A DNA stretch of 64,000 bases. Source: Terriglobia bacterium (GTDB taxonomy: Bacteria > Acidobacteriota > Terriglobia > Bryobacterales > Bryobacteraceae). The position numbers and the translations under genes are program-made. A model generated the notes under the pieces. That model ran no database searches, was not told the DNA's origin, and worked only from the letters and a program-made list of their open reading frames with translations. Within the stretch, counting starts at the first letter, position 1. The number at the start of each line of letters is the position of its first letter. Positions 19,701-56,830 of the stretch are shown one piece after another. The DNA is taken from positions 62,001-126,000 of the forward strand of contig JANYDS010000027.1 of assembly GCA_025363475.1 (NCBI GenBank), in the 5' to 3' direction.

Positions 19701-20173
19701 ACTTCGGATAACGGTTGAGATCAGCGCGGACTTTCCGTCGGGTGCCTCCGATCAGATCAGACGCGCGGTGTCAGAGAACGCCAAGAGCCTTGGATTCAAG
19801 AACTGCGCCTGGGAGTGAGGACCACAGATACAACTCTCTTGCCTGGTCCCGGTCACAAATCGCCAAAAATTTCTATACTGTTGCAAAGCAACGCTGAAGG
19901 CCCCGCATCCAAGCCCACTCCGCCCATTTTGTTTGGCGAGTCATGGTATCGTCCAGCCAGAACTCGCCAGCTCCACCGGTGGTTTGCAGCCGTCCCTGAA
20001 AAGGCGCTCCGGCAGCGTGATCTTTGAAAATTGAATATTCAACGCTGGACAACCCTGGCAAAACAGGGTCAGAGGAAACAAAAAACACTAAATTCACCAT
20101 TTGATCCTAATTTCCACAGGCCGGAAAACCCTCTACCACTATGATTTAAAACCAGTTATCGTCCGTAAACAGC
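19701..20173. other. Gene-free remnant stretch with short palindromes
   Basis: I find no credible gene here. It contains a perfect 12-bp palindrome TTGAATATTCAA (20031-20042), an inverted repeat ACCCTG/CAGGGT (20052-20057 and 20064-20069) and a first isolated GATCCTAA (20103-20110). Short open frames have no family features. It looks like decayed element sequence between the IS3 tail and the phased array. Confidence 0.45.
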
Positions 20174-20256
20174 AAAGTAGGATCGCCAGAAACGATCCTA
20201 CTTTATCCTAATTTGATCCTAAAACGATCCTAAAATATCCTGCTTGGATCCTAAAA
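20174..20256. repeat. 12-bp inverted repeat plus helically phased ATCCTA array
   Basis: AAAGTAGGATCG (20174-20185) is perfectly complementary to CGATCCTACTTT (20193-20204) across a 7-nt loop. From 20194 three 21-bp units follow, each with two ATCCTA/ATCCTG half-sites. The half-sites start at 20195, 20205, 20216, 20227, 20237 and 20248, so spacing is 10, 11, 11, 10 and 11 bp, one helical turn. The array stops 23 bp short of the tRNA-Val 3' end. It may be a multi-site binding region of a lost integrative element (integrase/excisionase arms, iterons or a repressor). Confidence 0.6.
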
Positions 20257-53588: not shown

Positions 53589-54357
53589 GGTTGGAGAATC
53601 TTTTAACCCTCAGCAATTGGAGTGCAAACAGCACAACGAATCGCGGATTGTCTCTGAGGTAACGCTTCCACAGCCGACGTGGTTCAGTAATGAGCCGGAA
53701 GAACCACTCCATGCCGATTCTCATCATCCAGCGCGGCGCCTGAGGTTTGGTTCCCGCCAGAAAGTCGAACGCAGCTCCCACTCCCAGCATGACTGCCTGA
53801 ACTTTGCCCCGGTGGCTAGCCATCCAGTAGTCCTGTTTCGGCGTGCCCAGCCCGACGAAAAGGATGCGCGCTCCGGAGGCGTTAATGAGTGCCACAGCCC
53901 CCGCATCTTCCACTGACGTGTGCTCGCTGAAGGGCGGAGCGTGCCCGTAAGCGACATGCAAATGAGGGAATCGTTCCGGCAGTACCGTCCGGATCTTTGC
54001 CAGTACGTCGGGTGTGGAACCGTAGAAGCCAACCGGAATGCCTGCATCGGCAGCCATTTGGAGCACAATAAGTGTCAGATCAGGCCCGTAAACCCGGGTT
54101 GCTGAGGGGTAGCCCAGGTGTTTCAGGCCCCAGACCAGAGGCATTCCGTCCGGGGTTACCAAGTCGGCATCATTCGTGATCCGCCGGAAAGCTGCGGAAT
54201 CGTAAGCCTGCATGACGTTGTACACATTGGGAAAGCAGACATAGCGGGAGGCACCCTCGCTTGCCCAGTCAATGATCATGCGGGAGGCTTCGGCGTAGCT
54301 GGTGGGGTCAACTCTCATGCCAAGTATGAAGGGCTGGTTGCCCGGAGCGTTGATCAC
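53569..54357 (-). CDS. WecG/TagA/CpsF family glycosyltransferase
   Basis: The 262-aa protein has the GT26 strings 'RYVCFPNVYNVMQAYDSAAF', 'DADLVTPDGMPLVWGLKHLG', 'VGFYGSTPDVL', 'GLGTPKQDYWM' and 'VGAAFDFLAGTKPQAPRWM', all typical of WecG/TagA enzymes. It adds the second sugar to a lipid-linked intermediate. C-terminal 'RYLRDNPRFVVLFALQLL' is probably membrane-associating. It lies between WbaP-like and GT4 genes with overlaps on both sides, so the three are co-translated. Confidence 0.9.
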   Translation of the reverse strand: MINAPGNQPFILGMRVDPTSYAEASRMIIDWASEGASRYVCFPNVYNVMQAYDSAAFRRITNDADLVTPDGMPLVWGLKHLGYPSATRVYGPDLTLIVLQMAADAGIPVGFYGSTPDVLAKIRTVLPERFPHLHVAYGHAPPFSEHTSVEDAGAVALINASGARILFVGLGTPKQDYWMASHRGKVQAVMLGVGAAFDFLAGTKPQAPRWMMRIGMEWFFRLITEPRRLWKRYLRDNPRFVVLFALQLLRVKRFSNHVSSHL

Positions 54358-55523
54358 GCCGGGGCCTTTAGGGCGCGCTGGTAGGCAGCCATGATGATTT
54401 GATAACCGCGTTCGGGCGTGTAGCGAGCCTCATAGCCGTCACGTGCGGCGGCTCGCATTAACGTGATGCCAGCGGGGTCAGAATCAACAGAATCGAGGAC
54501 GCGGGCCAGATCGCGGGGGTCACCGGAATGGAAGTGAAGGCCGGTTTTGTTGTTGGTAACAATTTCGGTTACGGCGCCGAGGTCGGGGCAAATCACGGGA
54601 GTGCCACAGGCAAATGCCTCTGCGGCGGCCCGGCCAAAAGTTTCATAGCACTCTGACGGCACGACGACTGCGCGGGCAGATGCCATCAACCCCATGACAT
54701 CTGTCAGGGGCAGTCGGCCGTCAAACCGAATACGGGGATCATGCAGGGCGGCCTCGCGAACCTCAGCTTCGAGTGGCCCATCTCCGACAATCCGAAATAT
54801 GGCTTTGGGCGAACGCGCAAGAGCGATGGCTTTCAGTAGTGTCCGAATGCCTTTTTCAGGGGAGAGGCGGCCGGCATAAAGAACGTCATCCCCGCCCGGG
54901 CCTGGGCCGCCCGGATCGACAATGAAGTTGGGCTTTACGACGAGCCGGGATTGGGGGAGGCCGCCTTCAATGAATTTCTTTTTGGCAAACTCCGAGAGTA
55001 CGAAAAAGATGGAGACCATGCGCGACCAGGTTCGCAGCAGGCGATGAACGGAGATCATGAGTGCGACGGCGGAGGTTTGCAGGGCACTCCCGCGGTAACA
55101 CTTGTGGGTGATTCCGGGCCAGGGAATGACATGCGAAGTGCAGTCTTCACAGACCTTTCCCTCGCGATAAAAATTAGCGCCAGGGCAGAGAATCCGGTAG
55201 TTATGAAGGGTCTGGACCACCGGTACCCGGCGTCTGCGGGCCGCGTAATAGACCGAGGGCGAGACCAGCGGGAAGAAGTTGTGTACGTCGAGGATGTCCG
55301 GTCTCCAGTCTTCGACGTAGTCACGGATTCGGACATAGGCGTTTTGGGACCAGCTGGCCTGAAGGCCGACCAGGATGGCATTGCGGGAATTGATCCGGGC
55401 GTTGTCGAAAACGACTTGACGGACCTCGTTGCCACGAGCGGCGAGAAGGTTGTCTTCGGCTTCGCGCGATTCATCTTCGCCTCCCCGGAATTTATAACGA
55501 TTGTGGACGGTGAGGATCTTCAC
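54354..55523 (-). CDS. GT4-family glycosyltransferase
   Basis: The 389-aa protein has an N-terminal GT-B part ('HNRYKFRGGEDESREAEDNLL') and the C-terminal GT4 motifs 'YAGRLSPEKGIRTLLKAI', 'RIVGDGPLEAEV' and 'EAFACGTPVICPDLGAVTEIV'. It transfers a sugar from a nucleotide donor to the growing lipid-linked glycan in the cytoplasm. A stretch of cysteines ('CPGANF...CEDCTSHVIPWPGITHKCYRG') resembles the zinc-like loop of some GT4 proteins. It overlaps the WecG-like gene by 4 bp. An open frame upstream (55520-55834) also overlaps it by 4 bp but is dubious. Confidence 0.9.
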   Translation of the reverse strand: MKILTVHNRYKFRGGEDESREAEDNLLAARGNEVRQVVFDNARINSRNAILVGLQASWSQNAYVRIRDYVEDWRPDILDVHNFFPLVSPSVYYAARRRRVPVVQTLHNYRILCPGANFYREGKVCEDCTSHVIPWPGITHKCYRGSALQTSAVALMISVHRLLRTWSRMVSIFFVLSEFAKKKFIEGGLPQSRLVVKPNFIVDPGGPGPGGDDVLYAGRLSPEKGIRTLLKAIALARSPKAIFRIVGDGPLEAEVREAALHDPRIRFDGRLPLTDVMGLMASARAVVVPSECYETFGRAAAEAFACGTPVICPDLGAVTEIVTNNKTGLHFHSGDPRDLARVLDSVDSDPAGITLMRAAARDGYEARYTPERGYQIIMAAYQRALKAPA

Positions 55524-55834
55524 GGGGTGGTGTCAGGCTTGGATTGGAGGGGGGAAAGTCGGGTTGAGTCGGGTTTTTCCCGGGTTTTATCGGGTTTTTC
55601 CTGGGTTTCCTTGGGTTCTCGCCGGGTTCGGTTATCGTCGCAAGTCATTGATTCTATGGACATAGCCGCATTGGGTCTGTGCAATAACTTGTTTTCTTGG
55701 GTTTGGGTTGATTCGGTCAGCAAGGATTGGAACACGCCCACATTGTACGGTGTCCAGTAAGAGTCGGATGCAAGCATTGCTCCTAACTCTCTATTTTTCA
55801 GCCAAAAATATTTCGAGGTGTGACTGGTTCTCAC
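55520..55834 (-). CDS. Doubtful 104-codon open frame carrying the 21-bp repeat
   Basis: This frame ends in an ATGA overlap with the GT4 start, like true junctions in this operon. It has no recognisable domain, is very charged, and its last third is three seven-residue repeats (KETQ, EKPDKTR, EKPDSTR) produced by the DNA repeat at 55561-55628. No Shine-Dalgarno is seen. It may be a chance frame through a regulatory region. The remaining sequence of the 326-bp gap shows nothing else. Confidence 0.2.
   Translation of the reverse strand: MRTSHTSKYFWLKNRELGAMLASDSYWTPYNVGVFQSLLTESTQTQENKLLHRPNAAMSIESMTCDDNRTRREPKETQEKPDKTREKPDSTRLSPLQSKPDTTP
55561..55628. repeat. Three 21-bp units with GGGTT half-sites phased at 10-11 bp
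   Basis: GGGTT starts at 55561, 55571, 55582, 55592, 55603, 55613 and 55624, so spacing alternates 10 and 11 bp. The period matches the DNA helix, so all half-sites face the same side. On the GT4 coding strand this gives phased AACCC with A-tracts, which should bend DNA. It lies 38-105 bp upstream of the GT4 start, in the promoter position for the glycosyltransferase operon. Confidence 0.65.
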
Positions 55835-55849
55835 TGACCTGCATGATCA

Positions 55850-56830
55850 TCAATCCCTGCCGATATTTGTTTGAGCTACAGCCCGAACTTTGCGATACCA
55901 CTCGCAGGTGTCGGATACTCCTGCTTCGAGCGAAATCGAAGAACGCCACCCGAGCCGGGCGAGTTTGCCGACATCCAGAAGCTTGCGAGGCGTGCCGTCG
56001 GGCCGGGTGGAATCAAAGACGACGTTCCCTTCAAACCCGGTAACACGGCGGACAATATCCACCAGTTCCCGAATGGAAACGTCGACGCCGGTGCCGACGT
56101 TGACGATGTCGGGGTCGTTGTAGTGACGCATCAGGAAAACAGCAGCGTCGGCCAAGTCATCCACGTGCAGAAATTCCCGGAGGGCAGTGCCGGTTCCCCA
56201 GACGGTGACTTCGGGCGCGAGCGCATCCCGGGCCTCCGCAAATTTACGCAGCAGCGCGGGGAGCACATGCGAGTTCTGCAGGTCGAAGTTATCGCCCGGT
56301 CCGTAAAGGTTGGTCGGCATTGCGCTGATGGCATTGAAACCATATTGCAGCCGATATGCCTGGGCCAGTTTGATGCCCGCAATCTTGGCCACCGCATACC
56401 ATTCATTGGTGGTTTCGAGCGCACTGGTCAGCAGGCTCGCTTCCTGGATTGGCTGAGGGGCGAATTTAGGATAGACGCATGAAGAACCGAGGAACAGAAG
56501 TTTTGCCGCACCGTACTTCCAGGCGGCATGGATGACATTGGTCTGGATGGCGAGATTATCGTAGATGAACTCGGCCGGGTAAGTGCTGTTGGCGAGAATG
56601 CCGCCGACCTTTGCTGCCGCAAGAAACACAAATTCGGGGCGCTCCTGTTGGAAGAATGAGTCCACAGCCTGCTGGTTTCTGAGGTCCACTTCGGCGTGGG
56701 TGCGGAGGATCAGACTGGTCAAACCCTCTGTAGCGAGACGGCGGCAAATGGCTGAGCCGACGAGGCCGCGGTGTCCAGCCACGAATATGCGGCTGGACTG
56801 GTGCATTCCCTGATCACCTGACTGCGGCAT
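55850..56830 (-). CDS. fcl: GDP-L-fucose synthase
   Basis: The 326-aa short-chain-dehydrogenase-type protein has 'FVAGHRGLVGSAI' (NADP-binding GxxGxxG), 'SSCVYPKFAPQPI', catalytic Y-A-V-A-K in 'NEWYAVAKIAGIK' and 'NLYGPGDNFD'. It epimerises and reduces GDP-4-keto-6-deoxy-mannose to GDP-L-fucose. The start codon follows the Gmd stop by 1 nt (TAG-C-ATG), so translation is coupled. The sugar is probably used by the glycosyltransferases of this locus. Confidence 0.94.
   Translation of the reverse strand: MPQSGDQGMHQSSRIFVAGHRGLVGSAICRRLATEGLTSLILRTHAEVDLRNQQAVDSFFQQERPEFVFLAAAKVGGILANSTYPAEFIYDNLAIQTNVIHAAWKYGAAKLLFLGSSCVYPKFAPQPIQEASLLTSALETTNEWYAVAKIAGIKLAQAYRLQYGFNAISAMPTNLYGPGDNFDLQNSHVLPALLRKFAEARDALAPEVTVWGTGTALREFLHVDDLADAAVFLMRHYNDPDIVNVGTGVDVSIRELVDIVRRVTGFEGNVVFDSTRPDGTPRKLLDVGKLARLGWRSSISLEAGVSDTCEWYRKVRAVAQTNIGRD

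Follow-up and report, generated by a model that had tools for sequence, protein, structure and literature searches.

A helically phased GGGTT array upstream of a glycosyltransferase gene as the probable 3' module of a dispersed, mobile-element-like repeat family

Genomic context and pattern of the array

In the window, by which we mean the whole 64,000-nucleotide stretch of DNA that was analysed, most of the gap between an NAD-dependent epimerase gene, presumably fcl-like judging from its sequence likeness, and a GT4 glycosyltransferase gene is occupied by a gene-less element that ends in a helically phased array. The locus comprises the following features:

54354..55523, minus strand: GT4 glycosyltransferase gene adjoining the array (Pfam Glycos_transf_1, Glyco_transf_4)
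55520..55834, minus strand: doubtful 104-codon frame spanning the element, not supported as a gene (no Pfam match; stops in all six frames of 8 other elements checked)
55561..55824, minus strand: whole gene-less element, 264 bp, 5' end at 55824 and 3' array end at 55561 (left-end motif and array; related non-coding copies elsewhere in the genome)
55561..55628, plus strand: helically phased array of seven GGGTT (AACCC on the element's own strand), spacing 10/11 bp
55629..55692, minus strand: core, from the middle to the array, TTATTGCACAGACCCA..., weakly like the TTTTTTGCAC..TCGAACCC core of other copies (by eye and alignment)
55638..55655, minus strand: AGAATCAATGACTTGCGA, like the right end of gene-bearing units in the congener G018
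55806..55824, minus strand: left-end motif GTCACACCTCGAAATATTT (other solitary elements have a similar motif at their left end, and genes of the protein family described below have one upstream)
55850..56830, minus strand: NAD-dependent epimerase gene on the other side of the element (Pfam Epimerase)

Both genes belong to a same-strand run that also includes GDP-mannose dehydratase, WecG-type and sugar-transferase genes. A preliminary description had placed the array upstream of a glycosyltransferase operon, which is right in that it lies 5' of the GT4 gene, but it sits within the same-strand run that leads from the epimerase gene to GT4. Its distance of 38–105 bp from the GT4 start, at 55523, was confirmed, and so was the alternating pattern that had been reported for it: the seven GGGTT starts fall at 55561, 55571, 55582, 55592, 55603, 55613 and 55624, with spacings of 10, 11, 10, 11, 10 and 11 bp, the array ends at 55628, and a period of 21 was reported there independently by Tandem Repeats Finder. 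This is the longest 10/11-bp chain among all 5-mers of the 64-kb window. No chain exceeded 3 in 20 third-order Markov simulations, a length reached in 8 of them, and a sample of 288,886 unmasked bases of this genome, from which one record was left out, contained no 5-mer chain of at least four at 10/11/21 bp.

The AA/TT steps of the window array peak at 10.4 bp, in agreement with the earlier claim of in-phase A-tracts, which are thus present, though only four of the seven GGGTT motifs end a run of AAA or longer. From these features, curvature of the array DNA is a plausible prediction. The phased A-tracts and the closeness to the GT4 start are also what favours the proposal that the array is a promoter architecture element of GT4, or was exapted as such. 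We consider this very improbable, since a sigma-70-type search of 55480–55900 found no sigma-70-like site, the array is missing from the GT4 homologues of congeners, and the same element is found beside unrelated genes. The homologues in question (42–49% identical) carry an upstream array in none of the four congeners having one, by a strict chain test of exact 5-mer chains of at least four, which weak arrays such as those of C43 and C32 fail. Upstream of homologues of the 1103-aa gene that follows another copy of the element, C51, arrays were likewise found at 0 of 11 congener loci with upstream sequence, a count that leaves out L129 (2 bp upstream) and L132 and L133 (partial matches without the start). 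Because no array was found at the compared congener homologues, the element is probably a lineage-specific addition at both the GT4 and the C51 loci.

A structured RNA was considered and set aside: the window element folds hardly better than its shuffles (z-score −1.30, with 21 of 200 shuffles equally good), and no Rfam covariance-model match at E ≤ 1 was obtained in the five loci scanned. Terminal inverted repeats are absent from 55540–55860 of the window copy, the only one scanned for inverted repeats over its full length, where the single 10-nt inverted pair lies away from the ends; this counts against a mobile-element origin.

Distribution of the arrays

When the own genome was searched with the DNA of the array region, three more arrays were retrieved. 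GGGTT-type arrays are present at seven places of this genome, namely C32, C40, C43, C50, C51, C52 (the window) and C71, those of C32 and C43 being weak; a one-mismatch match at C41 resembles coding sequence and was excluded from the count. AGGAT-type arrays are also present at seven places (C21, C42, C45, C47, C52 twice, and C96), one of which is the window array at 20194. The one-mismatch AGGAT search gave 10 matches and its reversed control as many as 7, but the arrays themselves satisfy the reversed pattern, TAGGA. Of 61 genomes, four contain exact GGGTT triplets at helical spacing, namely the own genome, its congeners G001 and G009, and G022, a genome of the same family with a single match.

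The arrays are roughly phased to the helix. Among 58 motif spacings drawn from 13 arrays (C32 omitted), 44 are of 10 or 11 bp, and 12 of the other 14 are of 12 or 20–22 bp. Of 24 arrays, 20 have their AA/TT period peak between 10.2 and 11.0 bp, versus 231 of 2400 shuffles, the exceptions being C71 (9.0), L066 and L067 (9.9) and the G015 array (11.4). A chance tandem duplication confined to the GT4 locus would fit the absence of the array at the compared loci in relatives, and the preliminary description had taken such absence as its mark. That rule fails here, because arrays absent at those loci are found elsewhere in the own genome and in G001 and G009. With multiple separate arrays in the genome, no chain in 289 kb of it sampled, and a longest simulated chain of 3, this explanation retains scarcely any probability.

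The neighbours of the arrays bear on another reading, in which they are operators of a host transcription factor that binds head-to-tail half-sites and controls a scattered regulon. OmpR/PhoB-type response regulators bind head-to-tail half-sites about 11 bp apart, and the present direct half-sites fit this spacing; in addition, the C40, C50, C51, C47, C71 and window arrays lie shortly upstream of a co-oriented gene. However, the C42, C45 and C96 arrays face convergent genes, two motifs coexist in one genome, the array is absent at the compared loci, and it is accompanied by homologous non-coding sequence up to a left end, so that we regard the operator reading as improbable.

Organisation of the element family

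Nine of the 14 array copies represent one element of 256–411 bp, with a GTCAC(A) or ATCACA left end, a non-coding middle and a terminal array. The left end is usually followed by AAATATTT or a similar sequence, on the strand opposite to GGGTT. The remaining five copies are three gene-associated ones (C52a, C71 and, weakly, C32), C45 and C96. A sister of the GT4-adjacent element lies within the window itself:

19851..20256, plus strand: sister element with an ATCCT (AGGAT) array, left end GGTCACAAATCG at 19851
20021..20037, plus strand: element-specific internal motif TCTTTGAAAATTGAATA, one of five genome-wide matches
20174..20204, no strand assigned: 12-bp perfect inverted repeat opening the ATCCT array

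The internal pattern TCTTTGANAAYTGAATA, with at most one mismatch, has five matches in the genome, all five inside array elements (four with AGGAT and one with GGGTT arrays), and none was obtained with the reversed pattern as a control. Since this motif is common to both array types, the array motif is exchangeable within one family: GGGTT and AGGAT arrays belong to the same element family, in which the phase of about 10.5 bp is kept. The two window arrays had been described as having the same format and different motifs, which is correct and is accounted for by this kinship. The GT4-adjacent copy is without the internal motif (best 11/17), which weighs against the mobile-element reading, and its core is weak. 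A candidate boxA antitermination site, CTTTGACAATTGAATA, which we at first took to be boxA-like, was dropped, as a genome-wide search found the motif only in array elements.

The homology of two copy pairs is bounded. From the left end to the array, C47 and C52b are 81% identical over 399 bp, and C40 and C50 are 72% identical over 374 bp; the ungapped match falls to 28% in both pairs in the 40 bp outside the left end, against 53% and 82%, respectively, in the 40 bp inside. A left-end regular expression matched upstream of 11 of 20 solitary arrays, downstream of none, antisense at one, and in 5 of 546 background windows; this expression, as well as the heptamer and right-end expressions used below, was composed after viewing some of the same sequences. 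It failed on nine of the 20 solitary arrays (2 of 11 in G000 and 7 of 9 in G001/G009), a point against the mobile-element reading, and the match at C96 is far out and doubtful. On inspection by eye, C51 and parts of some G001/G009 copies contain sequence similar to the left end.

The preliminary description had considered that the array might encode heptapeptide repeats. In favour of this, the 21-bp period corresponds to seven codons, the 104-codon frame across the window copy is open, and in other DNA certain DUF6291-related phage genes have AACCC arrays that code for repeats (see below). For the present element this is hardly credible. The window copy, with its one open frame, is the exception among nine elements, the other eight being interrupted by stops in every one of the six frames; nine of 11 gaps in the alignments of the two copy pairs are not multiples of three; substitutions by codon position in the two pairs number 29/27/19 and 33/35/36; and in the arrays of C51 and C42 most steps are of 11 bp, by which the frame is lost.

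In three of the seven AGGAT copies a perfect hairpin of 11–12 bp stands at the start of the array (window 20174–20204; L060:4022–4051; L062:982–1011). The base changes between these hairpins, AAAGTAGGATCG, AAAGCAGGATCG and AAATTAGGATC, are compensated and pairing is kept, a further hint of selection on DNA structure. We also noticed in congeners, near L066, L067, L070, L073, L097 and L148, phrases like CCGTGTTCATCTGTGGC, with variants, that look like another dispersed repeat.

An uncharacterised protein family beside the arrays

The C52a, C71 and, weakly, C32 arrays lie at or after the 3' end of genes from one uncharacterised protein family. Searches of Pfam, NCBIfam, PHROGs, PADLOC and PDB sequences gave no family match better than E 0.015, which is chance level (for NCBIfam, PHROGs and PADLOC, three family members each were used), and no Y1 or other transposase Pfam match was obtained at E ≤ 0.1 for 14 members. 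No transposase, nuclease or DNA-binding domain was thus recognised in the family protein, which counts against the mobile-element reading. The predicted structure of one member is helical, with a pLDDT of 62.

The family has 15 matches in the own genome and is present in 23 of 41 genomes searched (own included), among them every one of the 19 genomes of the genus; three congeners have 49, 24 and 21 matches. A search of the phylum gave at least 4 of 297 genomes, own included, with at most 12 candidates scored per genome, so that members may be missed. A phage or plasmid origin was considered and rejected (no phage records, four distant plasmid matches, and no viral-contig relative for two proteins). 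Distant relatives of the N-terminal region are found on Picosynechococcus plasmids (L180, L181) and a Planctomyces plasmid (L182); on L180 and L181, which are small cyanobacterial plasmids, the relative adjoins a PriCT-2-domain or helicase gene.

Several features tie these genes to the solitary elements. The left-end heptamer is found 60–260 bp upstream of the match start at 37 of 60 gene loci (those of 70 with 270 bp upstream), versus 49 of 732 equal control windows. Phased chains occur in 6 of 66 gene 3' flanks, 0 of 60 5' flanks and 1 of 1320 shuffles, the flanks being those of 70 loci with at least 300 bp. The motifs of the six 3' chains are AACCC (three), ATCCT, CCCCC and CCACC, with weak support for two of them, that of L148, which is 21-bp spaced and in frame, and the CCACC chain of L114, which lies beyond its ACCCGG array. 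Some arrays extend across the stop codon or are located in coding tails (C52a, L098, L117 and L148). The solitary G001 elements L067 and L068 start GGTCACAACGATTTT and AGTCACAACGATTTT, followed by AATAGAATCAACA, like the left ends of gene units such as L098 and L117. In G009, a gene remnant about 54 bp before the array L071 matches the family profile over its C-terminal 43 positions (i-Evalue 2e-12).

Gene units of the congener G018 allow both ends to be compared. Seven of them align with sharp ends in unrelated flanks, the match at the left end being 0.36 outside and 0.80 inside; at the right end it is 0.61 inside versus 0.29 outside, where the inside value includes the anchor and is inflated. 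The right-end expression for AGAATCAATGACTTGCGA, composed after viewing both the window and the G018 sequences, has no match in 577,772 strand-bases of a genome sample and a single one in the window, at 55638..55655. A stricter right-end expression matches at only 4 of 66 gene loci versus 1 of 313 control windows. With their common left end, the 3' arrays and the remnant before one array, the gene-less elements give the impression of being relatives of the gene units, either non-autonomous or deleted.

The C52a and C71 proteins, with AGGAT and GGGTT arrays respectively, are 31% identical, the motif thus differing with the gene; two pairs are too few for proof of protein–array co-divergence. 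Other observations count against the mobile-element reading: 60 of 66 family-gene 3' flanks are without a strict chain, which in the own genome is present at only 2 of 15 family genes (C52a and C71, the third, C32, having a weak array), and some gene copies have common neighbours between congeners, which suggests that these are old, vertically inherited residents. An all-against-all comparison of gene loci found common neighbours and no clear empty site, with no alignable empty site or target duplication among the compared loci.

Two observations concern the sequences that follow some family genes. At L113, L118 and L081 there is a leader-like stretch, CATCACCACC...GTCCTG...AACGATTTT, which we take to resemble an attenuator leader; in L118 and L081 it has a GC-rich inverted repeat that is terminator-like. 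At L091 (G015) and L110 (G016) one and the same conserved sequence (82% over 1177 bp) comes after different family members, a possible repeated insertion site.

Proposed origin and role of the array

The reading that agrees best with these findings, and to which we give roughly two chances in three, is that a gene-less member of a dispersed, mobile-element-like repeat family lies here, with the array as its 3' module and putative protein-binding platform. Gene-less copies would have arisen from gene-bearing units through gene loss and spread in trans, and one of them would have landed in the epimerase–GT4 gap, any effect on GT4 being a by-product. Because the half-sites are repeated on one face of DNA that is probably curved, we propose that the array offers multiple docking sites to a protein that binds cooperatively. 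As the array can follow a family gene and its motif differs with the gene, the first and most likely candidate for this binder is the family's own protein, which would mark the array end of the element.

The strongest competitor, although an unlikely one, is that the arrays are a decay product without function, formed as minisatellites grew at the 3' ends of genes in a large family undergoing decay, with the solitary arrays as leftovers of dead genes. The array that follows a gene remnant agrees with this, as do the C71 gene beside its GGGTT array, which has a stop inside the aligned stretch, the arrays that cross a stop codon or sit in coding tails, and the family genes without a strict array. 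Decay does not explain why a phase of about 10.5 bp is kept across unrelated motifs, or why the homology of the copy pairs is bounded. No gene trace was found at any of the 11 solitary arrays in G000, while five elements have a common internal motif, which is at odds with leftovers of dead genes; the missing gene trace is also a point against the mobile-element reading.

Returning to the mobile-element-like family, its members are best seen as dispersed miniature elements, and there is a real chance that they form a new class. A more specific form of this idea, which we put forward tentatively and hold to be possible rather than probable, is a new class of bacterial mobile element in which a small helical protein without a known nuclease fold would recognise, or assemble a filament on, a phased array 3' of its own gene, the motif being swapped as protein and array co-diverge (GGGTT, AGGAT, CCCCC), and gene-less two-ended copies spreading in trans. 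In either case, an odd pattern is tied to a genetic unit, a multi-copy gene family without domain assignment and its gene-less relatives, and a constant 10.5-bp phase with a changing motif offers an uncommon natural experiment on the reading of periodic DNA by proteins. Should the protein prove to bind its array, a family so far unannotated would gain a function, and element ends of a new type would be known.

Comparison with known systems

Iterons of plasmid and phage origins and ParR/parC centromeres consist of direct repeats near the helical repeat, on which a cooperative protein docks on one face, often beside its own gene. The present arrays may be likened to them in having several direct repeats near the helical repeat, a putative one-face docking and a gene alongside; they differ in being chromosomal and scattered, and no replication or partition gene was recognised.

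Arrays with the same pentamer are also found in viral contigs, which were searched with AACCC; an identical pentamer is no evidence of kinship. AACCC recurs at 10/11 bp within viral-contig genes matching DUF6291 (L248:3705–4472, L246:3056–3739 and L249:581–1270), two of these matches lying above and one below the Pfam cut-off. In these DUF6291-related phage genes the arrays are in frame and coding (TQENPT-like repeats), and there is no TGAAAAYAA core. As the same element, the AACCC arrays of 24 viral-contig stretches were rejected, the TGAAAAYAA core being present in 0 of 24 and the bare left-end heptamer within 500 bp in 3 of 24. Each of these viral genes possibly contains an origin-like array within the gene of its binder.

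In the open-licence literature, most subscription journals lying outside this scope, nothing describing the element or the protein family was found. Many short repeats are reported for the Solibacter usitatus genome, and the available parts of that report do not mention a phased-array pattern (PMC3174227). BrickBuilt, a MITE of Porphyromonas gingivalis with 19 copies in one strain, is described as a short intergenic element consisting of a leader, a tandem 23-nt array and a tail (PMC4596501). The present element resembles it in being short, intergenic and multi-copy with a tandem array of a short repeat. BrickBuilt has small inverted-repeat ends and head-to-tail 23-nt units, whereas the present element shows no terminal inverted repeats in the copy scanned, has half-sites at 10/11 bp and an exchangeable motif, and belongs to a family in which gene-bearing relatives exist. 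Compared with MITEs in general, it is likewise short, non-coding, multi-copy and dispersed but, in the window copy, without terminal inverted repeats, and in the place of an autonomous partner there are gene-bearing units with common end motifs, whose gene is without a recognised transposase domain.

REPs and REPINs are gene-less repeats scattered in intergenic space, associated with RAYT transposases (PMC3116915; PMC8266576). Scattered gene-less intergenic repeats, with related repeats beside a multi-copy gene family, are common to the REP/RAYT system and the present one. REPs are palindromes and RAYTs are tyrosine transposases, in contrast to the direct, phased array units and the protein without a recognised domain described here, for which no Y1 (HUH) transposase match was obtained in 14 members. 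BrickBuilt and the REPINs appear to be the systems nearest in kind to the present element family.
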